From: Hyphomicrobiales bacterium
GTDB taxonomy: Bacteria; Pseudomonadota; Alphaproteobacteria; Rhizobiales; Beijerinckiaceae
Length of the DNA stretch: 64,000 bases
Reading direction: 5' to 3'
Assembly: GCA_027484605.1 (NCBI GenBank)
Contig: JAIXSR010000041.1
Coordinates: forward strand, 1 to 64,000
The translations under genes and the position numbers were made by a program. Numbering within the stretch: the first letter of the stretch is position 1; each line of letters opens with the position of its first letter. Shown one piece after another: positions 1 through 18,907 of this stretch. The notes under the pieces were generated by a model that was given only the letters and a program-made list of their open reading frames with translations, searched no databases and was not told the DNA's origin.

Positions 1-1821
1 CGTGGGGCTGAGATCGTCATGGGTGCACCCAAGGCCGTGCAGCACATCGATCGTCTGGCCGAGCGTCGAGATGATCCCGGCAGCCCGGGCTGGATTGTGG
101 ATCGTACTTTCGCCGAGCGGCACACCGGCAGCCCGGCGATAGACAACGAAGGGGCCGACGGACGAGAGGCCGGCGGCCTCGAAATGGGGCAAGCCGTCTT
201 GCGGCTTGAGCCGCAGCCGCGCGATGCCCTCGAACATGGCGAGCATCGCGAGGTCGAGGGCCTGCGATTGGCCGCGCCGCATACCGGTCCAAACCTTGAC
301 CATGCAGTCACGGTCACCAATGCGCGTCGGATAGGTAGCGCAGCGCTCATTCTGTTGGACCTTGCCAGCTTTGGGCCACTGCACGAACGGAATGTCCGTG
401 ACTTCATGGGCGTCGAGCCGGGAATGATCGAGTGCTGGTTCGGTGGGGGACAGTATGTCTCCAACCGCATCGGCAAAGAGCTGGGCATTTCCATAGCGCT
501 CCGCCGGCATCTGTGCGCCGGCCTTGGCCAGGACCGCGTCGAGGCCATCTGGGAGCGCGAAGGACATTGACGGGTCGTCTGGTGCGACGATCTCCCGGAC
601 GATTTGCGCAAGCTGATAGACGTCGCGTTCGCTCGCCGTGCCGGCGAGCGTTTTGTCCAGATCTTCCGGCAAGTGCGCCGAATAGCCGCGAAGGAGGTCC
701 AGCCAGTCGCCAACGGATTCGTCGGCCGTGATTTTGGCCGACATGAAGCCGGTGAGCGCGAGCCGGGTCGGCGAGGTCATCCAGACGCAGGCCGGAGCGA
801 GGTCGCGATGGGCGACGCCCTGGCGGTGCAACTCGGCGGCGATGCCCAGAAGCGTGCTTACCGTGTCGAGGCGCTGGTCCAGAGCGAAGGACGAACGGTT
901 TTTCTCGATATAGCGGCGCAGGGTCGTCCAGTTGGGCGGCAGCCCGAGCACCTCATAATGGTCGGTGAGAATCTCGTCAGGCGGAGCGACGGAGGATTGA
1001 AGGATGGCAGCATCGGCAATGACCGAACTATCCGCCTCGCGCAGCAGGCCGACGACGCGAGCCTCGCGTTCGGCCACGATGCGCCGGGTTTCCGGGCTGT
1101 TGAGATCGTGGGGTAGCTTGTCGAGTCGCCATTGACGAAGGAGCGCTTTGATGCGCGGGTCGCGACACTGCTGGGCGCCATGCTCAGCAAAGAGGCCTCG
1201 GGGATGGACGAACAGCTCGCTCTCGCTGATGCCATAGCCATCCCAGTTCATCTGGCTGGCGCGAAACAGGGTGGGATTGCGCAGGACCGTGTCGAACTCG
1301 CTCACGAACGAGCAGGGCTTCACGCTGAGCATGGTCGTCTCTTCCAGCAGACTGGCGTGCTCAGTTGGGTCGCCGAGACGGCGCGCGTCGGCCAGCGACC
1401 AAGTATAGCGCTGGTCGTCGGGATGCAGTTTGAAAGAGGTGCAAGTGCCAGTCAGGATAACGCGCAGGTCGACATAGACTTTGGCGAGCGCAGGAATGCG
1501 CTGGGAAATGATCCCTTTGACCTTGCGCGCCTTCTCGCTGAGGAGCGCGACCGGCGAGCGGCCGCGCGGGCGTTCGTTGACGACCCAGCGGTCGCCCCGC
1601 GCTTCAAGATCGCCATTCCAGTCTTTGAGTTCGAGCAGGATGACACGATCGTCGGTGACTAGTAGGGCGTCGATCTCGATCGGCGAGGAACTTTTCGGAT
1701 AACAAGTCAGCGAAGCATAGAGCAGCCAGTGCGCGGGCAAACCGTCAGCAAGCGCATTTATGCCCTTGATTTCGCGCAGATGAATGCCGGCGCTATTGAG
1801 ATAATGAACCTTGCAGCTCAA
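1..1821 (-). CDS. NERD-domain / tandem kinase-like protein, C-terminal part missing (runs off left edge)
   Basis: One minus-strand frame stays open for 607 codons and leaves the window without a stop. I take the start as TTG at 1821, behind a G-rich stretch; an in-frame TAG lies a little upstream. Residues about 20-130 form a NERD domain: EID at 49-51 and ELK at 64-66 give the D...E-x-K pattern of restriction-type nucleases. A first kinase-like domain (about 220-480) has HRDL at 338-341, but the DFG position reads TGF (357-359), the metal-binding Asn is absent, and the VAIK-lysine position appears to be Arg/Gln (LLRQW). A second kinase-like domain begins near 490 with VKVW (508-511) and reaches HDDLSPT (601-607) at the cut, so it looks catalytically competent. 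NERD plus kinase recalls PglW of BREX type 2, but no full PglW match can be claimed. It is cargo of the tRNA-Leu element. Confidence 0.8.
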   Translation of the reverse strand, partial: MSCKVHYLNSAGIHLREIKGINALADGLPAHWLLYASLTCYPKSSSPIEIDALLVTDDRVILLELKDWNGDLEARGDRWVVNERPRGRSPVALLSEKARKVKGIISQRIPALAKVYVDLRVILTGTCTSFKLHPDDQRYTWSLADARRLGDPTEHASLLEETTMLSVKPCSFVSEFDTVLRNPTLFRASQMNWDGYGISESELFVHPRGLFAEHGAQQCRDPRIKALLRQWRLDKLPHDLNSPETRRIVAEREARVVGLLREADSSVIADAAILQSSVAPPDEILTDHYEVLGLPPNWTTLRRYIEKNRSSFALDQRLDTVSTLLGIAAELHRQGVAHRDLAPACVWMTSPTRLALTGFMSAKITADESVGDWLDLLRGYSAHLPEDLDKTLAGTASERDVYQLAQIVREIVAPDDPSMSFALPDGLDAVLAKAGAQMPAERYGNAQLFADAVGDILSPTEPALDHSRLDAHEVTDIPFVQWPKAGKVQQNERCATYPTRIGDRDCMVKVWTGMRRGQSQALDLAMLAMFEGIARLRLKPQDGLPHFEAAGLSSVGPFVVYRRAAGVPLGESTIHNPARAAGIISTLGQTIDVLHGLGCTHDDLSPT

Positions 1822-2322
1822 GCCCTGTTTCCCCCCCGCTCTCAGTATAGCGAGGGCGCGGGCACTTGGCGAGCAGCCTTGATGAGGCCGGCGAGCCTAG
1901 ATGCGTGACGGCAGATAGCTGATGCAGAATGACATGCGAAAACCGTTCGATTACCACGACTGGTATCTTGCCTTCCGAGCTGTCTGCTTTCTGCGGAGGG
2001 TTGGAGGGGAGACGCGTTGCTGGCGTGGATCTGCTGCTTTCGCATTCTGCGTTTCCAAAAGGGACGTTCCGGAACGTCCGACATTGCTGCCGCTCTGCGG
2101 TGATCAATTCGCAGTCTGCTTTCGGGAGCATGCTCGGAGTGGTGAAATGACCGGAAAGGGGGCGCAAACCTGCCATCCCAAACCAAACCGGTCATCGGCT
2201 GCCCATAACATTTGGACATGGAGCCAGCACGTGTCCCGTCCGGCTGGCTACTTGCCGTCGAAAAAAGAGTGGATTTGCTCGAGATTAGAGCCCGCCTGTC
2301 CTCAAGGCACTGCGGCGCCCCC

Positions 2323-2340
2323 ACACCCGAAAACGGGTGT
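2323..2340 (-). repeat. Iteron-like repeat copy, inverted orientation
   Basis: ACACCCGAAAACGGGTGT, a near-palindrome built on CCCG-N4-CGGG with A4 at the centre. Read on the minus strand it matches the CACCCGTTTTCGGG core of the copies at 2683, 2779 and 2801. It lies outside any supported gene. Confidence 0.5.
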
Positions 2341-2682
2341 AGGGCTACAAACGTCCACCGCGAGTTCAAGGCCGCGGTCTGCAGCGGTGCACAGTGCGCT
2401 TGGCGTTGCATGTCAGCCCCAAATCGCGCTGCGACGCCAGACTAACCTAGGTATGGGCTTGATCGGACTGTCAGCTGAGTAGACCCGTGAGAGCGAGAGC
2501 CACCCGCGCTCAGCCCGGCTTGCAACCCTGACCAGCCCGCCGGGCTGAGCGCTGATCCTGAGAGCGCGCGAACCTGGCCACTGGCATCAGCGTGCCGGAT
2601 CGAATCCAAGAACGTCGCACTGCATGGAGGTTGATCATTCTCCTCACCTGAAGCACCAACTCCCCCAAGATATATAAAGGTA

Positions 2683-2696
2683 CCCCGTTTTCGGGG
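2683..2696 (+). repeat. Iteron-like repeat copy
   Basis: CCCCGTTTTCGGGG, followed by GCGGGG. It sits just downstream of the replication-like gene and beside a short AT-rich stretch (tatataaagg), the arrangement expected of an iteron origin, though similarity of four short repeats is the only evidence. Confidence 0.45.
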
Positions 2697-2755
2697 GCGG
2701 GGAATTTCATTCTCGGCGAAACTCGGCAACCGGCAGGTTGCAAACTGCAGCGTTT

Positions 2756-3277
2756 TCAGGGACCGGCCTCCGTCCCTGCACCCGTTTTCGGGGGCAGGGC
2801 GCACCCGTTTTCGAGTGCGGGGATTTTCTGTTCCGAACGCTTCCATTCGTTTGTCGGTGCCGCGCCTTCCGCCGTTGGAAGCCATGTCAGGCGAAATCGA
2901 GAGGGGCGTTTTGCACACCCATAGCTCCGCCCTCCCTGCACAGTCGTTAGCAGGAAACCTGCATTTTCCAATTCGCGCAGAGCGTCAGGGATCGAACTCT
3001 CCCTGACGCCAAATGTCTTGAAGTCCGAGTATGTGACTGCAAGGAATCCATTCTGACGACCGGCGTGAGCCATGTGCTCGACAATCAGTCGAAAAAGACA
3101 AAGGAGTGCTGCGCGCGACAGTGAGCGAAACCCCCAACTATTGATCATCTCGGCAGTAAGCCAGAACCAGGCTTGGCCTTCCGGCGGTCCCAGCATTTTT
3201 CTCAGCTTCTGGTCCGCCGGTATCGAAGTCGATCTTCCCTTGCCATCATGCCTGCGTCCGGTATGGCGCACCGTCAT
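2756..3277 (-). CDS. Winged-helix replication-initiator-like protein
   Basis: A 174-residue protein starting at ATG 3277, chosen over an upstream in-frame ATG because AAGGAGGG lies 7 bp before it. Residues about 55-135 look like a winged-helix fold: a helix-rich stretch (SLSRAALLCLFRLI), a turn region with VRESSIPDALRELENAG as recognition helix, then a beta wing and SRFRLTWLP. Such proteins occur on alphaproteobacterial plasmids and integrative elements as replication or regulatory proteins; this is family-level memory and not a demonstrated match. The last 35 residues are low-complexity and are encoded by iteron-like DNA repeats. It lies between the AlpA-like gene and the NERD/kinase gene, on the same strand. 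Confidence 0.6.
   Translation of the reverse strand: MTVRHTGRRHDGKGRSTSIPADQKLRKMLGPPEGQAWFWLTAEMINSWGFRSLSRAALLCLFRLIVEHMAHAGRQNGFLAVTYSDFKTFGVRESSIPDALRELENAGFLLTTVQGGRSYGCAKRPSRFRLTWLPTAEGAAPTNEWKRSEQKIPALENGCALPPKTGAGTEAGP
2779..2818 (+). repeat. Pair of iteron-like repeats, 22 bp apart
   Basis: Two direct copies, GCACCCGTTTTCGGGGGC (2779-2796) and GCACCCGTTTTCGAGTGC (2801-2818), start 22 bp apart, close to two helical turns. Both lie inside the 3' end of the winged-helix gene, where they encode PPKTGA and ALENGC in different frame registers. That the DNA is conserved across frames suggests it is the DNA and not the peptide that matters. They may be binding sites of the overlapping gene's own product. 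Confidence 0.55.
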
Positions 3278-3446
3278 TGCGGGGCCCTCCTTTGCAGGCG
3301 AGTGAGATTGTGTTCGGCCATGATCCGCACCAGCGCAGAATCCGGCTTGCTCGGGCAATATGTGCGCGCAGTGCCGGAAAATCCTGTCGACGGGAATTCA
3401 AATGAAGACCCGGCCAGGCGCTGGAACGCCTGCCGGGCCACTTCGC

Positions 3447-3656
3447 TTAGACCGCCACGGGGCGCGTGCGAGGCGGAGCCGCCTTCTCCAGTTGGCTAAT
3501 ATATCGCTCGATTTCGCTGGCTTTGATGAAGCTGCGGCGTCCGTTCCTGACCACGGCAAGGCGGCCAGCCTTGACCTCCTCATAGGCGCGGGTTGTCTTC
3601 ATCCCCGCAAGGCCGATCGCCTCCTTGAACGGGATCAATCTGTCGATGCTGGTCAT
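3447..3656 (-). CDS. AlpA/Xis-like helix-turn-helix protein
   Basis: A 69-residue protein with the features of the AlpA/MerR-like excisionase family: an N-terminal helix-turn-helix (IPFKEAIGLAGMKTTRAYEEVKAG) followed by a wing (RLAVVRNGRRSFIKASEIERYI) typical of DNA-binding domain HTH_17. AGGAG and AAGGA precede the ATG. In P4-type elements AlpA-like proteins activate the integrase gene or act as excisionase, and here it lies 0.8 kb from the integrase on the same strand. The short length is normal for the family. Confidence 0.75.
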   Translation of the reverse strand: MTSIDRLIPFKEAIGLAGMKTTRAYEEVKAGRLAVVRNGRRSFIKASEIERYISQLEKAAPPRTRPVAV

Positions 3657-3726
3657 CGTTCCTTACTCCTGTGGCTTCGCACGAATCCGTGCGGCCTAGG
3701 GCGGAAGGGAGCATCCGGAACTTGGT

Positions 3727-4416
3727 TCAATAAATGGGGGGTTTTGACTTTTTTAGCTTCGAGGGTCCGTGAAGGTTTCCGAGGGCTACTTCGAGTGCCT
3801 CTAGTGCGGACATCTCAACGCCGAGCTCGCTTGCATCCTTGATCAGCTTGCGCAGCAAATTCTCGGCATGCTTGATGGCACGCGCATCCTCGGGAGAGTC
3901 GTTGCGTCTTTCCTCACTTCGACTAATGAAGTTCTCTAGAGACTGAGCATCGAACGCGTTCGGATAATGTTTGACAGTCTGAACAACCAGTCGAATAGCC
4001 GCTTTGCGCTTCTTGAAATGTTCCATCAATATCTGCAGGCAAGCAGCACCATGTATCAATGTTTGCATAGAAAGCGGATCATACCTTGGTCGGCCACCAG
4101 ACCTCATTGATTCAAAGAATTTGATGGCAGGATGAACCTTCCCGGACATAAGGGAAAAAATCAGGGATTCACCTTCCTTGAGCGCGTTTTGGAATACGTC
4201 ATTTTTATTATCTATGCTTTCTCTTGCAAATTGAATTGCATCCATAATTCCAATGATCGACCTATATATCCTAATTTCGGACTCAGTTAGACCTAGATCG
4301 TTCTTGATTTCGCGCCCGCTTTGAAAATAGTCTGAGAGGTATTCCCTGATCTTCCCGTAGTCGGGATCGTCATCGTCATTGTTCAGAAATCGTCGACCGC
4401 TAATTTTTTGAATCAT
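3727..4416 (-). CDS. Unrecognised protein downstream of the integrase
   Basis: A 229-residue protein whose family I do not recognise. It is largely helical and charged, with an acidic NDDDDPD cluster near the N terminus, a central segment ending in KFFESMRSGGRPRYDP, and a lysine-rich C terminus (PSKLKKSKPPIY). Start 4416 has an AGAGAG 8 bp upstream; an in-frame ATG at 4437 follows the integrase stop by 8 bases but lacks a ribosome-binding site. The DNA is clearly more AT-rich and uses more AAA, AAT and TTG-type codons than the chromosomal genes to the right, consistent with recent transfer. Likely co-transcribed with the integrase. Confidence 0.6.
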   Translation of the reverse strand: MIQKISGRRFLNNDDDDPDYGKIREYLSDYFQSGREIKNDLGLTESEIRIYRSIIGIMDAIQFARESIDNKNDVFQNALKEGESLIFSLMSGKVHPAIKFFESMRSGGRPRYDPLSMQTLIHGAACLQILMEHFKKRKAAIRLVVQTVKHYPNAFDAQSLENFISRSEERRNDSPEDARAIKHAENLLRKLIKDASELGVEMSALEALEVALGNLHGPSKLKKSKPPIY

Positions 4417-4445
4417 CGTCAGCGCTCTCTTTTGCATTCACGCGT

Positions 4446-5648
4446 TTACTGGGTACGCAACCCATCGAGATAATCCGCCCACCATTGCGTCATCCGCACC
4501 CGCTCATCCCAATGGTCACCACGCGCATAGGCCCGACGAACGGCATCCACCTCCTGATGGGCCAGCGCCCGCTCGATGGCATCCGCTGAGAAAAGGCCAG
4601 ACTGATTCAAGAGCGTCGACGCCGTTCCCCTAAAGCCATGCGCGGTCATTTCATCAGCGCCAAAGCCCATTCGGCGCAGTGCAAGGTTGAGAGTGTTCTC
4701 GGAAATCGGTCTCTTGGAGCTGACGATGCCGGGAAAGAGTAAGGCTTGGTGCCCGGCGATTGGACGAAGCGCTTCCAGGATCTGCACCGCCTGCCTCGGC
4801 AATGGGACACGGTGCTCGCGGCGCAACTTCATGCGCGACGCGGGGATGACCCAGATCGCGCGGTCCAGATCGAATTCCGTCCATTCTGCAAGTCGCAACT
4901 CGCCAGGGCGTGGAAAAAGGAGCGCCAAGAGCTTCAATGCTGCGACGGTCGTCGGTTGCCCCTTGAACTCATCGATAGCCTTCAGAAGAAGGCCGAGATC
5001 ATTGGACTTCAGGATAGCAGCCCGATGCTTGACCTGCGGCTTTGCGAGGGCTCCACGAAGCGCAAATGTCGGGTCCTGCTCTGCCCGCCCGGTGGCGATG
5101 GCAAACCGGAAAACCTCACCGATGCTCGAGCGCATGCGCCGCGCCGTCTCGAGATGGCCCCTGGCTTCCACCTTCTGCAAGACGCGGAGAATTTCCGGCG
5201 CCGAGATCTCGGCAATCGGTCTTTTCCCGAAAGCCTCGCCAGCCAGCCCATAAAGCCATTCACGCTTGCCGATGGTGTTGGAGGCATTGCCTTCGCGCTT
5301 TTTCTTGGCCAGCAATTCGCTCGCCAGCGCATCGAAAGTGTTGGCCTTGGCGATGGCCTCAGCAATGGCTTTGTTGGCCTTCTCTTGGTTCGCATGTTGG
5401 CGCGGATCAATTCCCAAGGCCAGCAGCCGCCTGGCCTCGCTTCGCTTGGCGCGGGCATCTACCAACGACATGTCGGGATAGGGTCCAAAGGAAAGCTTCT
5501 GTTGCTTGCCAGCTTGGTCACGATAGGCGAGGCACCACAGCTTTGAGCCGGACGGCATGATCCAAAGCTGCAAACCGCCGCCATCCGATAGTTTTTTGAT
5601 GGTTTGGCCGGCCTTGGCATTCTTCGCGGCAGTATCGGTCAAAGGCAT
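4446..5648 (-). CDS. P4-type tyrosine integrase
   Basis: A 400-residue site-specific recombinase that would integrate the element at the adjacent tRNA-Leu. The N terminus is a DUF4102-type arm-binding domain (starts MPLTDTAAKNAKAG; LSDGGGLQLWI; LSFGPYPDMSLVDAR), followed by a SAM-like core-binding domain and a C-terminal catalytic domain. Catalytic residues are visible: Arg in FPRPGELRLAEW, His and Arg in HGFRGTAS, the second His in LAHQEVDAV and the Tyr nucleophile in RRAYARG. I prefer ATG 5648 over an ORF start 99 bases upstream, since MPLTD is the usual family start. The gene appears intact, so the element could still be mobile. Confidence 0.93.
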   Translation of the reverse strand: MPLTDTAAKNAKAGQTIKKLSDGGGLQLWIMPSGSKLWCLAYRDQAGKQQKLSFGPYPDMSLVDARAKRSEARRLLALGIDPRQHANQEKANKAIAEAIAKANTFDALASELLAKKKREGNASNTIGKREWLYGLAGEAFGKRPIAEISAPEILRVLQKVEARGHLETARRMRSSIGEVFRFAIATGRAEQDPTFALRGALAKPQVKHRAAILKSNDLGLLLKAIDEFKGQPTTVAALKLLALLFPRPGELRLAEWTEFDLDRAIWVIPASRMKLRREHRVPLPRQAVQILEALRPIAGHQALLFPGIVSSKRPISENTLNLALRRMGFGADEMTAHGFRGTASTLLNQSGLFSADAIERALAHQEVDAVRRAYARGDHWDERVRMTQWWADYLDGLRTQ

Positions 5649-5752
5649 CTGTTGGCCTCGCGTTTTTGGCTTCGGGCCAAGGCCAACAAAAAAGCCAACA
5701 AATCGCGCGACTGTCAACGGAAGCAGGCGGACGCCAGCGAACCCCAAACAGC

Positions 5753-5780
5753 AAAAAACCGGCCTTTCGGGCCGGTTTTT
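5753..5780 (-). terminator. Bidirectional hairpin terminator downstream of tRNA-Leu
   Basis: AAAAACCGGCC-tttcg-GGCCGGTTTTT is a near-perfect 11-bp stem with A and T runs on the two sides, so it can work in both directions. It lies 31 bp beyond the tRNA 3' end and upstream of the integrase start, and would end the tRNA transcript. Confidence 0.8.
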
Positions 5781-5792
5781 GGGTACTTACGG

Positions 5793-5818
5793 TTGGTGCC
5801 GAAAGTCAATTTGGTGCC
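5793..5818. repeat. Short direct repeat at the tRNA 3' end, possible attachment-site trace
   Basis: TTGGTGCC occurs at 5793-5800 and again at 5811-5818, the second copy covering the CCA end of the tRNA gene (TGGTGCCCA on the plus strand). A partial copy of the tRNA 3' end next to an integrase can be a relic of earlier integration. Eight bases can recur by chance, and the diagnostic repeat at the far end of the element is outside the window. Confidence 0.3.
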
Positions 5819-5896
5819 CAGGAGAGGACTCGAACCTCCACGGCTTTCACCACTGGTACCTGAAACCAGCGCGTCTACCAATTCCGCCACCTGGGC
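5812..5896 (-). tRNA. tRNA-Leu (anticodon CAG)
   Basis: 85 bases with encoded CCA. The 5' GCCCAGG pairs with the 3' CCTGGGC of the acceptor stem. The anticodon arm is CTGGT-TTCAGGT-ACCAG, giving anticodon CAG, and the T arm contains GGTTCGAGTCC. A long variable arm marks it as a class II tRNA (Leu). Its 3' end faces the integrase, making it the probable integration site. Confidence 0.95.
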
Positions 5897-6014
5897 AACG
5901 GCGCCTCAATGCCGGCCCGCGCGGCGATTGTCAACCGGCTCTGTTCTTCTTGATAAGGTCGTTGTGATTGATCGGCGGCGATGAAAGGACTAGAGCAACG
6001 GAGCACCCGAGAGA

Positions 6015-7001
6015 ATGAGGTTGGCATCCATGACGCACGGTTCGCGGCTCGTCACGATTTTCGGTGGTTCCGGCTTTGTCGGCCGCCACCTGGTCCGGGC
6101 TCTGGCCCGCGAGGGCTGGAGAATCCGCGTGGCGGTGCGGCGGCCGGACCTTGCCGGCCATCTCCAGCCGCTGGGTGCGGTGGGGCAGATCCATGCCGTG
6201 CAGGCCAATCTGCGCTACCGTGATTCGGTGACGCGCGCCGTGCAGGGTGCGGATGCGGTGGTGAACCTTGTCGGCATCCTCGCCGAATCCGGCCGGCAGA
6301 GCTTCGGCGCGGTGCAGGCGCAGGGCGCCAGGGCCGTCGCCGAGGAAGCCGCGAAAGCCGGCATCACGCGATTTGTCCAGCTCTCGGCGATCGGAGCGGA
6401 TGCCGCTTCGGCGGCGGCCTATGCGCGCTCGAAAGCGCAGGGCGAGGCCTTCGTCATGGCCGCCATTCCCGAGGCGGTGATCCTGCGGCCGTCGATCGTG
6501 TTCGGCCCGGAAGACCAGTTCTTCAACCGGTTCGCGCGGATGGCGCAGTTCCTGCCCTTCCTGCCGCTGATCGGCGGCGGGGAAACGCGGTTCCAGCCGG
6601 TCTATGTGGCCGATGTGGCGGCGGCGGCGGCGAAGGCTCTCGACGGCGGCGCCCGGGCCGGCACCACCTACGAGCTGGGCGGGCCGGATATCCGGAGCTT
6701 CCGCGCCCTGCTCGAATACATCCTCGCGGTCACGCATCGCCGCCGGCTGCTGGTGCCGCTGCCCTTCCCGCTGGCGCGGCTGCAGGCCAGCGTTCTCGAG
6801 GTCCTGCCGGGGAAGATGCTCACCGTCGACCAGGTGACGATGCTGGAGACGGACAATGTCGTCAGCGCCGCAGCCGAAGCCGAGGGACGGACGCTGGCGG
6901 GGCTCGGCATCACGCCGTCCTCCTTCGAGGCGATCGTCCCGACCTATCTCTATTCATTCCGGCCGCATGGCCAGTTCGACCGGCCCGAATCGGCCGGCTG
7001 A
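6015..7001 (+). CDS. NDUFA9-like atypical SDR (NAD(P)H-binding) protein
   Basis: A 328-residue extended/atypical short-chain dehydrogenase of the complex I NDUFA9-like group. A nucleotide-binding motif GGSGFVGRH appears near residue 17, followed by the conserved YARSKAQGE and LRPSIVFGPEDQFFNRFA segments seen in this family. Bacterial members are found in alphaproteobacteria, where the mitochondrial subunit originated; they may bind NADPH structurally. ATG 6030 (MTHGSR) is an alternative start with TGAGG 9 bases upstream. It is the first gene on the chromosomal side of the tRNA and is convergent with the next gene, whose stop codon abuts its own. Confidence 0.88.
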   Translation: MRLASMTHGSRLVTIFGGSGFVGRHLVRALAREGWRIRVAVRRPDLAGHLQPLGAVGQIHAVQANLRYRDSVTRAVQGADAVVNLVGILAESGRQSFGAVQAQGARAVAEEAAKAGITRFVQLSAIGADAASAAAYARSKAQGEAFVMAAIPEAVILRPSIVFGPEDQFFNRFARMAQFLPFLPLIGGGETRFQPVYVADVAAAAAKALDGGARAGTTYELGGPDIRSFRALLEYILAVTHRRRLLVPLPFPLARLQASVLEVLPGKMLTVDQVTMLETDNVVSAAAEAEGRTLAGLGITPSSFEAIVPTYLYSFRPHGQFDRPESAG

Positions 7002-7997
7002 TCAGCCGGGCAGGACCAGCACACGGTCCGGCGGCATGTGGCCGTCAATGAAGGTCTTGATGTTGATGATGACCTTCTCGCCCATCTCGTTCCGGCTCTC
7101 GACCGTGGACGAGCCCATATGCGGCATCAGCGCGACCTTGCCGAGCTCGGCCAGCCGGATCAGCCGGGTCGAGACGGCGGGCTCGTGCTCGTAGACATCG
7201 AGAGCGGCGCCGGCGATCAGATCCTGCTCGAGCATGTCCGTCAGGGCCGCGGTATCCACGATCTCGCCACGCGCCGTGTTCACGAGGATCGCATCCGGCT
7301 TGAGCAGCCGCAGGCGGCGTCCGGAGAGCAGATGGAAACTCGCCGGCGTGTGCGGGCAATGCACGGTGACGATGTCCATCCGCGCCAGCATCCGGTCGAG
7401 TGAATCCCAGTAGGTGGCCTGGAGCTCTTCCTCGACGCGTTTCGCGGCGGGGCGGCGGTTATGATAATGGACCTGCAGCCCGAAGGCCCGGGCGCGCCGG
7501 GCCACGGCGAGGCCGATCCGGCCCATGCCGATGATCCCGAGGCGCTTGCCATGGATGCGGTGCCCGAGCATCCAGCCCGGCGACCAGCCATGCCATTGCC
7601 CGCCGGGAATGACGCGCACGCCTTCGACGAAACGGCGCGCGACGGCCACGATCAGGGCCATGGTGAAATCAGCCATGTCCTCGGTGAGGACACCCGGCGT
7701 GTTGGTGACGGTGATGTGCCGCTTCATCGCGGCAGCGACGTCGATATTGTCGGTGCCGTTGCCGAAATTCGCGATCAGCTTCAGCTGGGGGCCGGCCTCG
7801 GCGAGCAGCTCGGCATCGATCCGGTCGGTGATCGTGGGAACCAGCACCTTTGCGCGCTTCATCGCGGCAACCAGCGCCTCGCGCGACATCGGCTCGTCGG
7901 TTTCGTTCCGGACGAGATCAAACAGCTCGGCCATCCGCGTTTCGATGCCCTCGGGCAATCGGCGGGTCAGGATGACAAGCGGTTTCTCCCGATTCAT
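7002..7997 (-). CDS. D-2-hydroxyacid dehydrogenase (glyoxylate/hydroxypyruvate reductase type)
   Basis: A 331-residue NAD(P)-dependent D-isomer 2-hydroxyacid dehydrogenase. The Rossmann motif GMGRIGLAVARRA is in the middle of the chain. The catalytic Arg (NTARGEIVD), Glu (DVYEHEPAV) and His (MPHMGSST) are all present. Start ATG 7997 is preceded by GGGAG; an upstream ORF extension is not conserved-looking. The likely role is reducing glyoxylate or hydroxypyruvate, but the substrate cannot be read from the sequence. It converges on the SDR gene and diverges from the SH3 gene. Confidence 0.9.
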   Translation of the reverse strand: MNREKPLVILTRRLPEGIETRMAELFDLVRNETDEPMSREALVAAMKRAKVLVPTITDRIDAELLAEAGPQLKLIANFGNGTDNIDVAAAMKRHITVTNTPGVLTEDMADFTMALIVAVARRFVEGVRVIPGGQWHGWSPGWMLGHRIHGKRLGIIGMGRIGLAVARRARAFGLQVHYHNRRPAAKRVEEELQATYWDSLDRMLARMDIVTVHCPHTPASFHLLSGRRLRLLKPDAILVNTARGEIVDTAALTDMLEQDLIAGAALDVYEHEPAVSTRLIRLAELGKVALMPHMGSSTVESRNEMGEKVIINIKTFIDGHMPPDRVLVLPG

Positions 7998-8165
7998 GAG
8001 CGCTCCCGTCCGGTGGCGGCCCGGCAAAGCCGGTGCCGTTTCGATCTCATTAGCGTGCAATAAACGGGACGTTAACGCGCGTCGACAAAAAACGAAGGGA
8101 GGCACATGCGCATGCCCCGGACTTGCCGCAATGGCGGGCGAAGCAGGCGCAGGAAGAGGGACGGG

Positions 8166-8708
8166 ATGATGCGTCTGATGGGGTCAATGTCGAACAGGCT
8201 TGCCTTTGGCCTCGGGGTTCTCGGGCTCGCCTTCTGCGGGATGCCGGCGGCAGCCGAGGATCCGTCCACGACGGGCTCGGTCACGAAGCTGCCCATTCCG
8301 CGCTTCGTGAGCCTGAAGCCCTCCGATACGCCGATGCGCGAGGGGCCGAGCAAGGACCACCGGATCAAGTGGGTGTTCAAGCGCGAGGGGCTGCCGGTCG
8401 AGGTGATCGGCGAGCACGATCACTGGCGGCGCGTGCGCGATTCCGAGAGCACGGATGGTTGGGTCTATTTCGGGCGGCTCTCCAACCGCCGCACAGTGGT
8501 CATCCGCGCCGGCAAGACCTCGGCCGAGCAGAATCTCTATCGGGACGATCGCGAGACCAGCGCGGTGGTGGCGCGCCTGCAGCCGGGCGTGATCGCGAAT
8601 GTGCAGAACTGCTCGCGCGACTGGTGCAAGGTCAGCATCGAGAGCTATGCGGGCTATGTGCGGAAGGATGCCGTCTGGGGGGTCTATCCCGACGAGACGA
8701 TCAAGTAG
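8166..8708 (+). CDS. Exported SH3-domain protein
   Basis: A 180-residue protein with an N-terminal signal peptide ending near CGMPAAAED, followed by two bacterial SH3-like repeats: one around MREGPSKDHRIKWVFKREGLPVEV...GWVYFGRLS and one around NLYRDDRETSAVVARLQPGV...GYVRKDAVWGV. The family (SH3-like, YgiM/DUF1058 type) is associated with the cell envelope. ATG 8166 follows AGGGACGGG; the frame is open upstream to 8106, but that stretch is arginine-rich and lacks a signal sequence. It ends 3 bases before the irr stop, convergent. Confidence 0.82.
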   Translation: MMRLMGSMSNRLAFGLGVLGLAFCGMPAAAEDPSTTGSVTKLPIPRFVSLKPSDTPMREGPSKDHRIKWVFKREGLPVEVIGEHDHWRRVRDSESTDGWVYFGRLSNRRTVVIRAGKTSAEQNLYRDDRETSAVVARLQPGVIANVQNCSRDWCKVSIESYAGYVRKDAVWGVYPDETIK

Positions 8709-8711
8709 TGC

Positions 8712-9221
8712 TCAGGACGCCTTGCGCCTCAGCCGGACGACCACTTCAACCCGCGCGATCTCCATGCCTTCCGGCGGTTCCGGCAGGTTGGTGACGGCGA
8801 GGTCGTGCCCGGGAATATCGACCAGCGTATCCCCGCCCTCGACGAAGAAATGGTGGTGATCCGAGGTGTTCGTGTCGAAATAGGTGCGGCCGCCATCAAC
8901 CGCGATCTCGCGCAGGAGACCGGCCTGGGTGAACTGGTTCAGCGTGTTGTAGACCGTGGCAAGCGAGACCGGCACGCGGGCGCGCTGGGCCTCCTCGAAC
9001 AACGTTTCCGCCGCGAGGTGCCGATCGCCGCGGCCGAAGAGCAGCCAGCCCAGCGCCACGCGCTGGCGCGTCGGCCGCAGGCCGGCATCGCGGAGGCGTT
9101 CCTTGAGGTCATGGACGGGGCATCCGGCAAGGCTTGCCGGCAGGCGCGCCGCTTCGGACGCCGCCCTTGCGCCTTCCAGCCCCCGGATCACATTGACCAT
9201 CCGCGCCACGGATCGCTCCAT
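8712..9221 (-). CDS. irr: Irr-like iron response regulator (Fur family)
   Basis: A 169-residue Fur-superfamily repressor/activator that in Rhizobiales senses haem and controls iron and haem genes. Features supporting Irr over Fur: a CP haem-regulatory motif at GCP 33-35, an HHH cluster at 122-124 (DHHHFF) corresponding to the second haem site, and no CxxC zinc pairs. The winged helix spans about 45-100 (PTRQRVALGWLLF; VSLATVYNTL). It lies directly upstream of and divergent from fabA, the order known from several rhizobia. Start ATG 9221 has no strong ribosome-binding site. Confidence 0.9.
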   Translation of the reverse strand: MERSVARMVNVIRGLEGARAASEAARLPASLAGCPVHDLKERLRDAGLRPTRQRVALGWLLFGRGDRHLAAETLFEEAQRARVPVSLATVYNTLNQFTQAGLLREIAVDGGRTYFDTNTSDHHHFFVEGGDTLVDIPGHDLAVTNLPEPPEGMEIARVEVVVRLRRKAS

Positions 9222-9452
9222 CTGCTTACCCTTTCCTACCTATCCCTTTCACCCCGCCGAAACAAGGTCGAACCGGGCCATCCTCCGGCACAAGGCTTAC
9301 GAAGCCGTATTCCCGTGCGGATTCCGGAGCAAAAATGCAGAGGAAACCAAAAATCAATTCAGCGCGGCACGGATTTGGACTAGACGGGAACAGGTTTGAC
9401 AGATTTATGGCGTCGTGGGCCAAGGATGGCCGGGACGCAGCGAAGGACGACA

Positions 9453-9974
9453 ATGAGCAACGGGACGGGCGAGCGGCAATCCAGCTTCTCCTACGAGGAG
9501 CTTCTGGCATGCGGGCGAGGCGAGTTGTTCGGCATGGGCAACGCCCAGCTTCCCGCGCCGCCGATGCTGATGTTCGACCGGATCGCCCTGATCTCCGAGA
9601 CCGGCGGCGCCTATGGCAAGGGCGAGATCCGCGCCGAACTCGATGTCCGGCCCGATCTCTGGTTCTTTCCGTGCCATTTCAAGGGCGATCCCGTGATGCC
9701 GGGCTGCCTGGGTCTCGACGCGCTCTGGCAGTTGACGGGCTTCTTCCTCGGATGGCTCGGCCTGCCGGGCCGCGGGCGGGCTCTGGGCGTGGGCGAGGTG
9801 AAATTCGCCGATCAGGTCCTGCCCAGTGTCCGGAAGGTGGTATACGGGGTTGATGTGAAGCGTGTCTTCAAGGGCAAGCTGGTGCTCGGCATCGCCGATG
9901 GCTGGCTTGAAGCGGATGGCAAGCGCATCTACACGACAACCGACATGCGGGTCGGGCTGTTCCAGCCGACCTGA
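9453..9974 (+). CDS. fabA: 3-hydroxydecanoyl-ACP dehydratase/isomerase
   Basis: A 173-residue FabA that dehydrates 3-hydroxydecanoyl-ACP and isomerises trans-2 to cis-3-decenoyl-ACP, the branch point to unsaturated fatty acids. The catalytic His is at about 75 (FPCHFKGDP) and the Asp at about 89 ([10 protein letters not shown]). Start 9453 is set by AAGGA 7 bases upstream; the frame is open further up. It heads a fabA-fabB-(DUF3303)-fabI block. Confidence 0.96.
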
Positions 9975-10066
9975 CGCCACCCCTTGCGGAACGGCGGCAG
10001 ACAGGCCACTTGAACCGGGTCAGCGCGCGGATCGCGGCCCTCATGGCGAAAGACGGAGTGAGCAGA

Positions 10067-11287
10067 ATGAGACGCGTTGTCGTCACGGGCATGGGCATCG
10101 TTTCGTCCATCGGCAACAATACGCAGGAAGTCCTGGCCTCGCTGCACGAGGCGAAATCGGGCATCACGCCGGCCGCCGAATTCACCGAACACGGCTTCCG
10201 CAGCCAGGTCTATGGCAAGCCGACACTCGACCCCTCGACGATTCTCGACCGCCGCGCGATGCGCTTCCATGGTGGTGGCACTGCCTGGAACCAGGTGGCG
10301 ATGGAACAGGCGATCCGCGATGCCGGGCTCGAGGAGAGCGAGATTTCGAACGAGCGCACCGGAATCATCATGGGTTCCGGCGGCCCCTCGACGCGGACCC
10401 TGATCGAGGCGATCGACAAGGCGCGCGAAAGCGGCAATTCGAAACGCGTCGGACCCTTCGCCGTACCGAAGGCGATGTCTTCCACCGCCTCGGCCACGCT
10501 GGCGACCTGGTTCAAGATCAAGGGCGTGAATTATTCGATCTCCTCGGCCTGCGCGACTTCGAACCATTGCATCGGCAATGCCTACGAGATGATCCAGTGG
10601 GGCAAGCAGGACCGCGTCTTTGCCGGCGGCTGCGAGGAACTCGACTGGTCGCTGTCGGTCCTGTTCGACGCGATGGGCGCGATGTCGTCGAGCTACAACG
10701 ATTCCACCGCCTCCCGCGCCTATGACAAGAACCGCGACGGTTTCGTCATTGCCGGCGGTGCCGGCGTGATGGTGCTCGAGGCCTACGAGGTTGCCAAGGC
10801 ACGCGGCGCGCGGATCCTGGCCGAGATCGTTGGCTATGGCGCAACCTCCGACGGCTATGACATGGTGGCCCCTTCGGGCGAGGGCGCGGTGCGCTGCATG
10901 AAGCTGGCCCTCGGCGACCTGACGGCGCCGATCGACTACATCAATCCGCACGGGACCTCGACTCCGGTCGGCGACATCAAGGAAATCGAGGCAGTCCGCA
11001 CGGTTTTCGGCGCGAAGGCACAGTCGGTGCCCATTTCCTCGACCAAGTCGCTGACCGGGCACAGCCTGGGCGCGACCGGCGTGCAGGAGGCGATCTATTC
11101 CGTGCTGATGATGCAGAACGGCTTTGTCTGCGAGAGCGCGCATATCACCGAACTTGACCCGGACATGGCCGACATGAACATCGTCCGCAAGCGGATCGAC
11201 AATGCCCGGCTCGGGCATGTGATGTCGAATTCCTTCGGTTTCGGCGGCACGAACGCGACCATCATCCTGAAACATCCGGAGGCGTGA
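10067..11287 (+). CDS. fabB: 3-oxoacyl-ACP synthase I
   Basis: A 406-residue condensing enzyme that elongates cis-unsaturated acyl-ACPs. The active-site Cys is at about 162 (SSACATSNH), with His in [11 protein letters not shown], Lys in STKSLTGH and the second His in TGHSLGATG, plus the C-terminal GFGGTN loop. Start 10067 follows GGAG at 9 bases; an in-frame ATG-like extension from 10010 is rejected because MRRVVVTG is the family start. It lies 92 bases after fabA, the two forming the classic unsaturated fatty-acid pair. Confidence 0.96.
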
Positions 11288-11321
11288 GGCCCGTCGGCCT
11301 CGGCCAGCAGGGGAGACGCCG

Positions 11322-11594
11322 ATGCTGTTCATGGTCATCGAACATTTCGACCAGGCCCGGGTGAAGGAAATCTATGCCCGCTTCCACGAGAAGGGCCGGA
11401 TGATCCCGGACGGGCTTTCCTATGTCAGCAGCTGGATCTCGGCGGATTTCTCGCGCTGCTTCCAGGTGATGGAAACGGACGACGTCACCACGCTGCAGGA
11501 ATGGGTGCTCGCCTGGGGCGATCTCGCGCGGTTCGAAATCGTGCCGCTGGCCGGGTCGAAAGAGACCTATGCCGCGGTGCAGAAGCATCTCTGA
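11322..11594 (+). CDS. DUF3303-family protein
   Basis: A 90-residue protein matching the small DUF3303 family by its opening MLFMVIEHF, the central PDGLSYVSSW and the RCFQVMETDD...LQEW segment. The function is not known. It is inserted between fabB and fabI (34 and 30 bases away), so it is probably translated from the fatty-acid mRNA. A GGGGAG motif precedes the ATG. Confidence 0.8.
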   Translation: MLFMVIEHFDQARVKEIYARFHEKGRMIPDGLSYVSSWISADFSRCFQVMETDDVTTLQEWVLAWGDLARFEIVPLAGSKETYAAVQKHL

Positions 11595-11624
11595 ATTCAG
11601 ACAGGAACAAGGAGCCTGGCGCGC

Positions 11625-12434
11625 ATGACGTCGCTGATGGCAGGAAAGCGCGGCCTTATCATGGGGGTCGCCAACCAGAACTCGATTGCCTGGGGCATTG
11701 CCCGCACGCTGGCCGAACAGGGTGCGAAGCTCGCCTTCACCTATCAGGGTGAGGCGCTCGGCAAGCGCGTGAAGCCGCTGGCCGAGAGCGTGGGCTCGGA
11801 TCTTGTCCTGCCCTGCGATGTCGAGGACATCGCCTCGGTCGATGCCGTGTTCGACACGCTGAAGGCCGAATGGGGTGGCCTCGATTTCGTTGTGCATGCG
11901 ATCGGCTTCTCGGACAAGAACGAGCTCAGGGGCCGCTATGCCGACACCACGCGCGAGAATTTCGTGCGGACCATGGTGATCTCGTGCTTCTCCTTCACCG
12001 AGATTGCCCGGCGCGCCGCCGCGCTGATGCCGCCGGAAGGCGGAACGCTGCTGACGCTGACCTATGGCGGCGCGAACCGCGTCTCGCCCAATTACAACGT
12101 GATGGGCGTGGCCAAGGCCGCGCTCGAAAGCTCGGTCCGCTATCTCGCCGCCGATCTCGGCCGCGACAATATCCGGGTAAACGCCATTTCGGCCGGCCCT
12201 GTCCGGACGCTCGCCGGAGCGGGCATCACCGATGCGCGCTTCACCTTTTCCTACCAGACGAAGCATTCGCCGCTGCGCCGGCCGATCACGCTGGAAGAGC
12301 TGGGCGGTTCGGCACTTTACCTGCTCTCGTCGCTTTCGGGCGGGGTGACGGGCGAGATCCACTATGTCGATTCGGGCTATTCGATCATGAAGATGCCGCG
12401 GGCCGAGGACATGAAGGCCGAGGCCGAGGGCTGA
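11625..12434 (+). CDS. fabI: Enoyl-ACP reductase (NADH)
   Basis: A 269-residue SDR-type enoyl-ACP reductase completing each elongation cycle. The FabI-specific cofactor segment GVANQNSIAWGIA is at about 15-27, and the active-site pattern Tyr-x6-Lys is in PNYNVMGVAKAALE. The conserved GPVRTLAGAGI substrate-loop segment is present. FabI proteins are the target of triclosan and isoniazid-type inhibitors in the wider family. Third enzyme gene in the fab block. Confidence 0.95.
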   Translation: MTSLMAGKRGLIMGVANQNSIAWGIARTLAEQGAKLAFTYQGEALGKRVKPLAESVGSDLVLPCDVEDIASVDAVFDTLKAEWGGLDFVVHAIGFSDKNELRGRYADTTRENFVRTMVISCFSFTEIARRAAALMPPEGGTLLTLTYGGANRVSPNYNVMGVAKAALESSVRYLAADLGRDNIRVNAISAGPVRTLAGAGITDARFTFSYQTKHSPLRRPITLEELGGSALYLLSSLSGGVTGEIHYVDSGYSIMKMPRAEDMKAEAEG

Positions 12435-12457
12435 GCCCGGCCGGAAGGAGGCAGAGC

Positions 12458-13096
12458 ATGATCTCCCGACGACTCGTCGTGGCCGGCCTTGCCGGCCTGC
12501 CCGCGCTGGCGATGGCGCAGGCGAATGAACCGGAATTCTATCCCGTCCCGGTCGAGCTGATCGCCAATCTCGAGCGGTTGCAGGGGGCGGTGACGCTCGG
12601 CCCGCGCAACGCGGATGTCCGGCTCTATGAATTCTTCGATTACAATTGCGGCTGGTGCCGGCGGACGTCGGTCGATTCCCGTGCGCTGATCAAGGCAAAC
12701 AAGGACCTTGCGGTGGTGCTGGTCAATTATGCCGTGCTGGGCATCCCCTCGATCAGCGCCACGCGGGTGGCCCTGGCCTTTTCCCGCCAGAAGGCCGACC
12801 GCTATCTCGATTTCCACGAAGCCCTGTTCAAGCGCCGCGGCACGATCGATGGCCGGATTGCCATGGATGTCGCCGGGACCTTCGGGATTGACCGGAAGCG
12901 CCTGCTCGAGGAGGCTGATTCCGACGCGGTGACCGCCGCGATGCGGGCGGCCTCGCAGCTCGGCTCGACACTGGGCTTCCAGGCCACGCCGTCCTATCTC
13001 GTCGGCAAGGAAGGCTTCACCGGCTTTCTCGATCGCGCCGCCAAGCAGAAGGCCGTCGAGGCCTGGCGCCGCTGCGAGAAGACGCGCTGCGCCTGA
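12458..13096 (+). CDS. DsbA-like periplasmic thiol-disulfide oxidoreductase
   Basis: A 212-residue protein with a cleavable export signal (MISRRLVVAGLAG...AMAQA), a thioredoxin-fold active site CGWC in FFDYNCGWCRRT, and a cis-Pro segment (ATPSYLVG). This fits the Com1/DsbA-like disulfide oxidoreductases of alphaproteobacteria. AAGGAGG precedes ATG 12458, 24 bases after fabI. A much longer in-frame ORF reaching back to 11870 only runs through fabI in another frame. It ends one base before the TauE stop on the other strand. Confidence 0.88.
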   Translation: MISRRLVVAGLAGLPALAMAQANEPEFYPVPVELIANLERLQGAVTLGPRNADVRLYEFFDYNCGWCRRTSVDSRALIKANKDLAVVLVNYAVLGIPSISATRVALAFSRQKADRYLDFHEALFKRRGTIDGRIAMDVAGTFGIDRKRLLEEADSDAVTAAMRAASQLGSTLGFQATPSYLVGKEGFTGFLDRAAKQKAVEAWRRCEKTRCA

Positions 13097-13858
13097 TCAG
13101 AAACCCGGGAAGCGGATGCCGGCAGCGCGCCGGAGCAGGTCGAGCGCGATCAGGGTCAGCACGATTTTCAGGATGGTCTGGAACAGCCGCTCCGGCATTT
13201 TCTCGAGCAGCCTTGTGCCCATCACCGTGCCGATGAACCCGCTGACGATCATCGCGGCGATCAGGGGCAGCCAGGGCACCAGCGCCACACCGATCAGGCT
13301 GAAGGCCAGCACCTTCAGCAGGTGCTGCGCCGTCATCATCACGGCATGGGTGGCGATCAGGCCCTTGCGATCCAGCTTCAGCGGGAAGAGCAGGGCCTGC
13401 ACGAAGGAGCCGGTCGCCCCGACGAACATGGTCAGGACCGAGGCGAAGGCCCCGCCGAGCACCAGGCCGGCGGAGGAAAGGCCCGGAATCCGAGGCTTCG
13501 GGACCCAGACCATCACGAGGATGAAGAGCCCGAGCATGCCGAGAAGAAAGCGCTCGGGCAGGCTCACGAACAGCCAGGCGCCGAGGCCGATGCCGACCAG
13601 CGCGCCGACGAGGAACCGCACGACCGCCGGCCAATGCGCGTGCTTGCGCTGCAGGATGGCCCGGCCGAGATTCGAGCCGACCTGCACCACGCCATGGACA
13701 GCGATCACCACATTCGGCGCAACCGTGCCGGCGAGGGCGCCGAGCATCGCGACGCCGCCGCCGATGCCGAAGGCGGCGGTGAGGGCGGAGGTGAAAAACG
13801 AGACACCGATCAGCAGAAGCGCCGTGGCGATGTCGATTCCCGGCGGCAGGAAAATCAT
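13097..13858 (-). CDS. TauE/SafE-family membrane permease
   Basis: A 253-residue protein with about eight hydrophobic segments and the repeated glycine-rich motifs of the TauE/SafE (TSUP) family (AAFGIGGGVAMLGAL near 28-42; VHGVVQVGSNLGRAI). Members move sulfite, sulfoacetate or other organic anions across the inner membrane. Its ATG overlaps the stop of the upstream oxidoreductase by four bases (ATGA), so the pair is translationally coupled and the permease probably handles that enzyme's substrate or product. Confidence 0.88.
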   Translation of the reverse strand: MIFLPPGIDIATALLLIGVSFFTSALTAAFGIGGGVAMLGALAGTVAPNVVIAVHGVVQVGSNLGRAILQRKHAHWPAVVRFLVGALVGIGLGAWLFVSLPERFLLGMLGLFILVMVWVPKPRIPGLSSAGLVLGGAFASVLTMFVGATGSFVQALLFPLKLDRKGLIATHAVMMTAQHLLKVLAFSLIGVALVPWLPLIAAMIVSGFIGTVMGTRLLEKMPERLFQTILKIVLTLIALDLLRRAAGIRFPGF

Positions 13859-15192
13859 GCCGCGCCCCAGATCATCGCCTCCATCTCCATCCGCATCCGG
13901 AGGAGGACGGAATCAGCGGGCAGGCTGACCTTGTCGCGCGTGATGAGCTCGCCCTTGGCGATCGGCGCGAGCACCGTGCCGCCATGCAGCATGCCGACGG
14001 GCCAGGCACGGGCCGCGCGGGCATCGGCAACGGTGAGCGTGAAGGAGCGATAGCAGGTCTCGCCGATGGCATCGAGCCGCTCGCCCGGGGCCAAAGCCCG
14101 CTTGGCCCGGGCACAGACCTCGGCGCTCGGCGTGGGAAGGGGGAACATCTCGGCCTGGCCATAGAGAACGGCCCGGGCAGCCGAGAGCGGTACTTCCAGG
14201 CTGGTCAGGTGATGCGGGCGATAGAAGGTGTAATAGGGACCCTCGCCGCCCATCCTGAGATCATGCATCCGCTCGCAGAGGCGGGGATGGTCCATCTCGA
14301 CCACGATGAAGACCCCGGGCGCGACGCCCTTGCCCACCGTGTAGTCGACCACGCCCTTGCGGGTGAGGATGCCACCATCGGCCTTGGGTACGAGCACCTT
14401 CTCCAGCATGGAGAGGGTGGCTTCCGGCCCGTGCATGCCCGGCACGTCGACGGTGAGGCCGGTGGCATTGGCGATGGCCGCCATTTCCACCATGGTCTTC
14501 GAGCCGTCGACAAACTCGACCAGCATGCGCGGATTCATGTTCCGCCGCTCGGCCTCCGCCCGGTAATCATCGGGCACGGCATCCGGGTTGAACGGATTGT
14601 TCTTGCCCTTGCCCGCCGCGATGACGGGATAGCCGAGGGCGGTGGCGAAATTGATCAGCTCCATCGTCGCGGTCGGCTCGTCGCCGGCGCCGATCGTATA
14701 GACGATGCCGGCCTGATCGGCCTCGCGCTTGAGCAGGGGGCCGATCGTGACATCGGCCTCGACGTTCATCATGACGAGATGCTTGCCCTGGCGGATCGTG
14801 GCCCGGCCCAGTTCAGCCCCGGCCGCGGGCCTGCCGGTCGCATCGATGACGACATCGATCAGGCCGCTGCGCAGCATCGTATGGGCATCGTCGATGATCG
14901 CGATCCGGCCGGCCTCGATGGCGCGGTCAAGCGCGGGCAGGCCATCCACGGGGGCGCCCAGCGACTCGGGCAGCCGCGCGATGCGGATCGCCTCCTGTGC
15001 GTTGCGGCCGGAACGGTCGACGATCGCGCCGATCCGCATGCCCTGCATCCGGGCGATCTGGGTCACCAGATCGGTTCCCATCTCGCCGCAGCCGATCACC
15101 CCGACGCGGATCGGCTGGCCAGATTGCTCCCGTGCCGCGAGATCCGCCGCCAGACCGCGCGCCGCGATGCCCGGCGCCTGTCGCATCGTCAT
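13855..15192 (-). CDS. SAF-domain NAD(P)-dependent oxidoreductase (homoserine-dehydrogenase-like)
   Basis: A 445-residue protein with an N-terminal Rossmann fold (VGVIGCGEMGTDLV at about 30-43; VVIDATGRPAAGAE), a central catalytic region with KGKNNPFNPDAVPDDY, and a C-terminal SAF domain (GMLHGGTVLAPIAKGELITRDKV). It resembles the homoserine-dehydrogenase-like DRL group, whose substrates are mostly unassigned, with several linked to short sugar-acid catabolism. The coupling to a TauE-type permease suggests a small organic acid substrate. No HTH or pathway neighbour narrows this down. Confidence 0.75.
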   Translation of the reverse strand: MTMRQAPGIAARGLAADLAAREQSGQPIRVGVIGCGEMGTDLVTQIARMQGMRIGAIVDRSGRNAQEAIRIARLPESLGAPVDGLPALDRAIEAGRIAIIDDAHTMLRSGLIDVVIDATGRPAAGAELGRATIRQGKHLVMMNVEADVTIGPLLKREADQAGIVYTIGAGDEPTATMELINFATALGYPVIAAGKGKNNPFNPDAVPDDYRAEAERRNMNPRMLVEFVDGSKTMVEMAAIANATGLTVDVPGMHGPEATLSMLEKVLVPKADGGILTRKGVVDYTVGKGVAPGVFIVVEMDHPRLCERMHDLRMGGEGPYYTFYRPHHLTSLEVPLSAARAVLYGQAEMFPLPTPSAEVCARAKRALAPGERLDAIGETCYRSFTLTVADARAARAWPVGMLHGGTVLAPIAKGELITRDKVSLPADSVLLRMRMEMEAMIWGAA

Positions 15193-15278
15193 GATTTCCC
15201 CAAGCTTCTTCGGGCAATGGTTTCGCCCTTTCCTGCCGAGGGACGGTTTTTTGGCAGCGCTGTCAATCGCAAAAAGGT

Positions 15279-18752: not shown

Positions 18753-18907
18753 GAGCAACTCCCCGGGGACGCGCAGCATGATTGCGCGTTTTTTGCAGCG
18801 CGTCATGCCTCTTCACCAAGGAAAGGGGCGGAGTCGACCCGGTCAGCCTTGCGGATTCCGCATGTGATGCATGCTGAAATCCGATAACGGGCCCGGAAAA
18901 TCCGGGG

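Follow-up and report, generated by a model that had tools for sequence, protein, structure and literature searches.

The window, the 64,000-nucleotide stretch of DNA analysed here, begins inside a gene: on the minus strand a frame starts with TTG at position 1821 and runs without a stop through 607 codons to base 1. The locus raises the question of which gene this is and whether it is damaged. The preliminary description had noted the unclosed frame and three antisense frames overlapping it, and both observations were confirmed (antisense frames at 19-570, 604-1116 and 1132-1662). It had also called the product a truncated NERD protein. The frame is indeed cut at window base 1, which is also base 1 of contig C33 (66,094 bases) in a draft assembly of 171 contigs. 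The frame is unclosed because C33 ends there, and the truncation is therefore a property of the assembly and not of the gene. The predicted features of the frame are as follows.

1..1821, minus strand: N-terminal 607 codons of mkoA (PADLOC PDLC03921 MkoA, 4e-102; protein residues 4-606 match model positions 2-615 of 1607)
1468..1758, minus strand: NERD nuclease-related domain, residues 22-118 (Pfam PF08378, 3.6e-09, above cut-off; 5.7e-10 in the genome search)
442..1239, minus strand: pseudokinase, about residues 195-460, limits approximate (Pfam Pkinase below cut-off, and a nine-row alignment)
1..369, minus strand: first part of a second kinase, with Lys509 and HDD 601-603 retained, at approximately residues 485-607 (the remainder lies beyond the contig end)

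The domains first proposed for this protein, NERD followed by a degenerate and a second kinase, were borne out by the Pfam NERD match and by the motifs HRD/TGF, VKVW and HDD. The D...[DE]xK residues of the NERD domain are D51, E64 and K66. In the first kinase, HRD occupies residues 338-340, Cys345 stands at the place of the catalytic-loop Asn and TGF (357-359) at that of DFG; based on the sequence pattern, Arg229 probably occupies the place of the VAIK lysine. Pfam Pkinase matched residues 301-415 weakly (E 0.0059, below cut-off), and matched the relative L005 at 4.2e-08, above cut-off, with its best stretch at 578-624. The second kinase has VKVW with Lys509, and H601-D-D-L-S-P at the end of the sequence. 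For the window protein, searches of the PDB by sequence returned weak kinase matches alone, PknI being the best at 7.7e-04, and its fold as predicted from a two-row alignment was low-scoring (mean pLDDT 31.4, pTM 0.20).

We aligned the N-terminal part of nine MkoA proteins (the window protein, L005, L019, L010, L011, L020, L052, L051 and L050). The NERD D...[DE]xK residues were kept in 9/9 rows. In the first kinase, Arg was found at the expected VAIK Lys in all nine rows, HRD in eight and the loop Asn in two, and the DFG Asp was lost in all nine. In the second kinase, Lys and HxD were kept in 9/9 rows and the Asn and Asp in 8/8, as the window row stops before these two residues, which in this genome fall in the stretch missing between C33 and another contig, C60. 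From these kept and lost residues, the first kinase is read as a pseudokinase that has been conserved, and the second appears to be active; the first could keep some activity given its HRD (8/9) and Asn (2/9). The tandem kinase layout had been thought unusual, a view that does not hold, as it is present in every row of the alignment and is in print for two other proteins. The order of NERD, inactive kinase and active kinase is not new, since passages of PMC12839542 give it for the N-terminal half of PglW, as in the window MkoA, passages of PMC10853773 describe some exemplars of DndF in which NERD is fused to an inactive and an active copy of the kinase, and a table in PMC10952713 has both NERD and PLD-like domains for Mokosh type I.

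The preliminary description could not match this combination of domains to a named family. Its best PADLOC match was MkoA of Mokosh type I (PDLC03921, 4e-102), with PglW next at 4.1e-18. A search of its own genome (G000) with the MkoA model found three places, on C33, C60 and C117, the last being a match of 149 positions to the kinase alone (1.2e-13). The model search found no second N- or C-terminal piece of mkoA in the genome. The C-terminal part, which the preliminary description had proposed to look for, was located by the MkoA model on C60, with an SF1 helicase and mkoB.

G000:C60:1-2754, plus strand: C-terminal part of mkoA (PDLC03921 model positions about 654-1600 of 1607, 817 bits)
C60:2751-4151, plus strand: mkoB, 466 codons, four-base overlap with mkoA (PADLOC PDLC03923, 1.3e-62)

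The MkoA profile was covered in two pieces, 2-615 and about 654-1600 of 1607 positions, with the gap at the contig break, and the C60 piece matched the SF1 helicase families AAA_11 (8.2e-37) and AAA_12 (1.6e-40) of Pfam. Two relatives bear on whether the pieces belong together. L005, a 5,476-base Sphingomonadaceae MAG contig and the sole relative out of 49 pattern matches in a contig scan, has a single 1,188-codon frame that bridges the break, being 89% identical to C33 residues 1-606 and 93% identical to C60 from residue 647. Judged against L005, whose own frame stops inside the helicase at the contig end, about 40 codons are absent between C33 and C60. G017, of the same family (L019), has an intact mkoA of 1,589 codons and, in the same order and with a four-base overlap, an mkoB of 463 codons. 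Since L005 spans the break and G017 has an intact mkoA-mkoB pair, C33 and C60 are very likely halves of one mkoA, joined by homology and not by reads.

The two pieces could instead derive from different partial copies, or mkoA could be broken within the roughly 40 missing residues; the break lies inside the second kinase, the ends of C33 and C60 share no overlap and the assembly is a many-contig draft. However, there is a single N-terminal and a single C-terminal piece, each at a contig edge, and a single unbroken frame matches both at about 90% identity, which makes this explanation improbable. A natural truncation of mkoA was rejected, based on the C33 edge, the complementary C60 piece and the unbroken frame of L005.

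Read across both contigs, the predicted MkoA has the order NERD nuclease domain, pseudokinase, kinase and SF1 helicase, with mkoB as the next gene. The PADLOC Mokosh type I models PDLC03921 and PDLC03923 were the best match for both pieces, and the partner gene directly downstream and the domain order are the same as in that system. Identity to the window MkoA is 29% over the N-terminal part in the nearest plasmid relative, which makes the window protein distant from it, and 89% in the MAG relative L005. We are close to certain that the window frame encodes the beginning of MkoA from a Mokosh type I system (NERD variant) in a tRNA-Leu island, and have good, somewhat lesser, confidence in that identity when the domain roles are taken together with it. 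The window gene is thereby assigned, by its sequence, to a known defence system, and the novelty claimed for it was not upheld: an odd open frame turns into a named defence gene.

The earlier suggestion for this gene was a PglW-like function in a BREX type 2 locus. A PglW of a BREX type 2 or Pgl locus would have the NERD and kinase pair in common with the window protein, and PglW models did match it (PADLOC 4.1e-18, NCBIfam 1.9e-15). Yet the N-terminal 607 residues scored 55.7 bits with NF033442 against a cut-off of 990, the PADLOC value compares with 4e-102 for MkoA, and both the C-terminal half and the neighbours differ: the C60 half, best matched by the MkoA model, is an SF1 helicase and is followed by mkoB, whereas PglW has winged-helix and STAND parts in the passages of PMC12839542. 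These scores, the helicase and mkoB rule out PglW unless C60 is not the continuation, and we regard it as extremely improbable. By eye, no pglX, pglZ, BrxC or similar gene was recognised among ORFs of window positions 1-12000 (at least 80 aa) or C60 positions 1-20000 (at least 150 aa). In a plasmid relative, Polaromonas sp. JS666 plasmid 1 (L052:1-13869), mkoA and mkoB lie between pglX and pglZ in a locus annotated as BREX type 1.

We also considered kinship with MAD6, of the methylation-associated defence system, or with DndF. The NCBIfam MAD6 model matched residues 17-420 at 5e-43, scoring above PglW, and the MAD6/PglW-like protein of G128 (L022) has the same N-terminal order. The likeness to MAD6 is one of the NERD/kinase N-terminus, but the N-terminal 607 residues reached 147.5 bits with NF047741 against a cut-off of 460, by which MAD6 was rejected, and the PADLOC mad6 model gave 0.00069 versus 4e-102 for MkoA. 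In addition, an MkoB gene directly follows the C-terminal half, DndF has its own core and accompanying Dnd genes, and DndF did not appear among the best 25 of 26 PADLOC matches. Neither protein is a credible identity for the window gene, for which we retain MkoA. The G128 protein (L022:2837-7075, G128:C28) has NERD and two kinases in 1412 codons, is closest to MAD6 (1.7e-139) and resembles PglW as well; immediately upstream of its gene are methyltransferase-like and specificity-like ORFs. Together, these comparisons illustrate how a contig edge can hide a known system, as the N-terminal half, taken by itself, comes out as PglW, MAD6 or a kinase in other libraries.

The preliminary description had regarded the frame as the cargo of an element at a tRNA integration site, typical of defence genes. 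The features between the frame and the tRNA agree with this, mkoA (predicted) being a defence gene that lies beside a tyrosine integrase and tRNA-Leu.

2756..3358, minus strand: ORF of 200 aa (up to E 1, nothing matched in Pfam, PADLOC or NCBIfam)
3727..4437, minus strand: ORF of 236 aa (no Pfam or NCBIfam match above the curated cut-off, and none in PADLOC)
4446..5747, minus strand: tyrosine recombinase (integrase; Phage_int_M 2.9e-26, Arm-DNA-bind_3 1.5e-25, Phage_integrase 6.2e-16)
5748..5829, minus strand: probable att site, the last 18 tRNA bases and 64 more (repeat at G000:C108:4118-4199, 95% identity)
5812..5896, minus strand: tRNA-Leu (cag), the integration target (ARAGORN)

The integrase gene is directly downstream of tRNA-Leu. 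A 14-mer scan of C60 found no right copy of the att site there, and the copy that was found is on C108. Past it, 7.7 kb of C108 was unmatched in the relatives compared. The island may run from C33 through C60 to C108. Beside the att copy (G000:C108:1205-3904) are ORFs that, by eye, resemble an IS3-type transposase and a STAND-like ATPase.

Relatives differ at this tRNA. In the same-genus genomes G137 and G166, the tRNA end meets sequence matching C108:11933 onward within about 50 bases, and we read these as empty sites. The distance from the tRNA to the next shared stretch is about 5 kb in G205 and about 16.6 kb in G179. Window positions 2455-3310 are 83% identical to part of the G179 island at the same tRNA site. 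As the G179 island (L044:2716-6928, G179:C15) carries Hachiman (HamA 2.4e-93, HamB 1490 bits), this tRNA-Leu is a site for defence cargo. In L005, a relaxase-like gene (L005:1-1593, DUF3363 7.1e-86) is just upstream of mkoA, and that copy of mkoA is therefore also on a mobile element.

Passages of PMC11672841 ascribe a separate PLD nuclease to Mokosh type I. The system described here is a member by the PADLOC profiles and not by that printed description, since Pfam searches up to E 1 detected no PLD in its MkoB, which also lacks the H.K.{4}D (HKD) motif. We therefore compared two panels of loci. The NERD panel (n=16) comprised this genome and L010, L011, L019, L020, L050, L051 and L052, selected on the N-terminus of MkoA, and L079-L086, selected on MkoB; the PLD panel (n=10) comprised L068, L071-L077, L087 and L088, all picked by MkoB. 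Each row was chosen by one gene, so that the state of the other gene was the test. Rows were hand-picked: seven from 52 plasmid records, five from 47 (L078 then being dropped) and five from 167. In the class sample, 37/385 genomes matched PDLC03922 at 1e-6, many of them only at model positions 290-600, the PLD part, which is common to other enzymes, and one was taken (G463, 9.3e-87). Dropped before counting were L078 (Magnetospirillum; its MkoA is a 539-codon helicase fragment), L021 (G059; masked stretches), L022 (G128; best PADLOC match MAD6), and G897 and G622 (matching the PLD part of the model only); the G041 hit (E 9.1e-4) was left out of the panels.

The HKD motif was absent from MkoB in 16/16 NERD-kind loci, and Pfam PLD had no match in the eight of the 16 that were scanned. 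NERD was in frame in 15/16 of these loci, the other, L084, having it upstream in another frame. Our own NERD profile was built from 11 of the sequences and is circular for those, with L082, L083, L085 and L086 outside it. In the PLD-kind loci, NERD was absent from MkoA in 10/10 by our own profile (best E 0.5) and in 8/8 by Pfam; a loose NERD-residue pattern hit L074 and L088, which we took as chance. Two HKD motifs were present in MkoB of 9/10 PLD-kind loci, and L087 had one, with HGKFLLWG replacing the second. Counted by the gene not used for selection, HKD was found in 0/7 MkoB of the MkoA-chosen rows, in-frame NERD in 7/8 of the MkoB-chosen rows and NERD in 0/10 of the PLD rows.

The PLD variant (PDLC03920/PDLC03922) resembles the NERD variant in the kinase-like N-terminus of MkoA, the SF1 helicase, the two overlapping or adjoining genes and a related N-terminal region of MkoB. 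It differs in that NERD is missing, MkoA has about 1150-1200 aa and MkoB, at 579-639 aa, bears HKD motifs. The relation of the MkoB N-terminal regions was apparent from PDLC03922 matching the C60 MkoB at 5.7e-18 (model positions 3-190) and from an hhalign probability of 86; between the C-terminal parts of the two kinds no relation was detectable. In a tree of the helicase part with 23 rows (13 NERD, 10 PLD; excluding L050, L051 and L084), the two kinds formed the two sides of one branch with support of 100/100, and the pattern is therefore one evolutionary event and not many independent ones. The separation was very long (1.32 plus 3.6 changes per column), with long end branches for L075 and L088, and by their sequences the two kinds may be distantly related at most.

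Based on these comparisons, Mokosh type I could represent two anciently separate systems that have a helicase-kinase core and the MkoB N-terminus in common and carry their nuclease in opposite subunits, with NERD heading MkoA beside a motif-less MkoB in one, versus a two-HKD PLD MkoB and no NERD in the other. In the NERD kind, a single polypeptide would then sense, regulate and act as effector, its pseudokinase-kinase pair switching NERD, as a module shared with PglW and DndF. We consider this whole reading to be just short of an even chance. The reciprocal nuclease placement is a side result that may be new; the titles and abstract openings of the Mokosh literature covered contain no description of it. 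If the pattern holds, the statement that every type I Mokosh has a PLD nuclease is wrong for a large share of copies. Millman et al. 2022 is reportedly the original Mokosh paper.

In the Pseudomonas sp. Leaf58 plasmid (L051:5977-10940), MkoA is encoded as a NERD-kinase gene of 1096 codons and a separate helicase gene with a four-base overlap, an arrangement that could be natural or the result of a break in the gene. The mkoA of L084 (L084:1534-6473) looks broken, with a frame change after NERD, as does that of L050 (L050:5872-12055), in which an IS3 transposase lies between two parts.

The mechanism of Mokosh is entered as unknown in the part of a 2026 review that deals with it (PMC12926258), and passages of PMC11291487 report degradation of viral transcripts by Mokosh and do not settle the responsible domain. 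In the scheme we favor for the NERD kind, the helicase would engage phage-derived RNA or DNA, and its ATP-driven movement would shift the conformation of MkoA. The kinase, until then restrained by the pseudokinase, would be let go and would phosphorylate MkoA, MkoB or another target. As the effector, the NERD domain would cut nucleic acid. The MkoB of this variant, with its conserved N-terminal region and no recognisable PLD motif, would be a nucleic-acid-binding or scaffold subunit. This chain, with the helicase as sensor, the kinase pair as switch and NERD as nuclease, is drawn from domain conservation and is tentative, being somewhat more prone to prove wrong than right.

The same system might instead use another effector, either MkoB as a divergent, unrecognised nuclease or the kinase, with NERD as a backup or a nucleic-acid-binding relic. 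The PLD nuclease described for Mokosh type I (PMC11672841) is in line with this, as are the passages of PMC12839542 and PMC10853773 that propose the NERD of PglW and DndF as a backup effector, and a few residues are invariant in the MkoB C-terminus (E398, P421 and G423). Against it are the missing HKD motifs and Pfam PLD matches of the NERD-kind MkoB proteins (16/16 and 8/16 scanned) and the NERD catalytic residues kept throughout the nine-row alignment. Absence of a motif in MkoB does not equal absence of nuclease activity, and an MkoB profile had no match up to E 1 in the PDB. We regard another effector as possible and rather doubtful, and NERD is the effector candidate that we retain.

N-terminal MkoA matches occurred in 6/199 genomes of the family, a count that includes G128 (MAD6-like) and G041 (weak). 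PDLC03923 matched 1/385 genomes in the class sample and 6/398 in the phylum sample, and no relatives of MkoB were found among viral contigs. DNA resembling the E. coli copy L082, which is of the NERD kind, was present in 350/5426 complete E. coli genomes, 309 of them with at least 80% of the query; the effector domain should therefore be directly testable in a laboratory strain. The record that holds L082 (NZ_OL790696.1) is a 4.8 Mb E. coli sequence filed as a plasmid, whose size suggests a chromosome.
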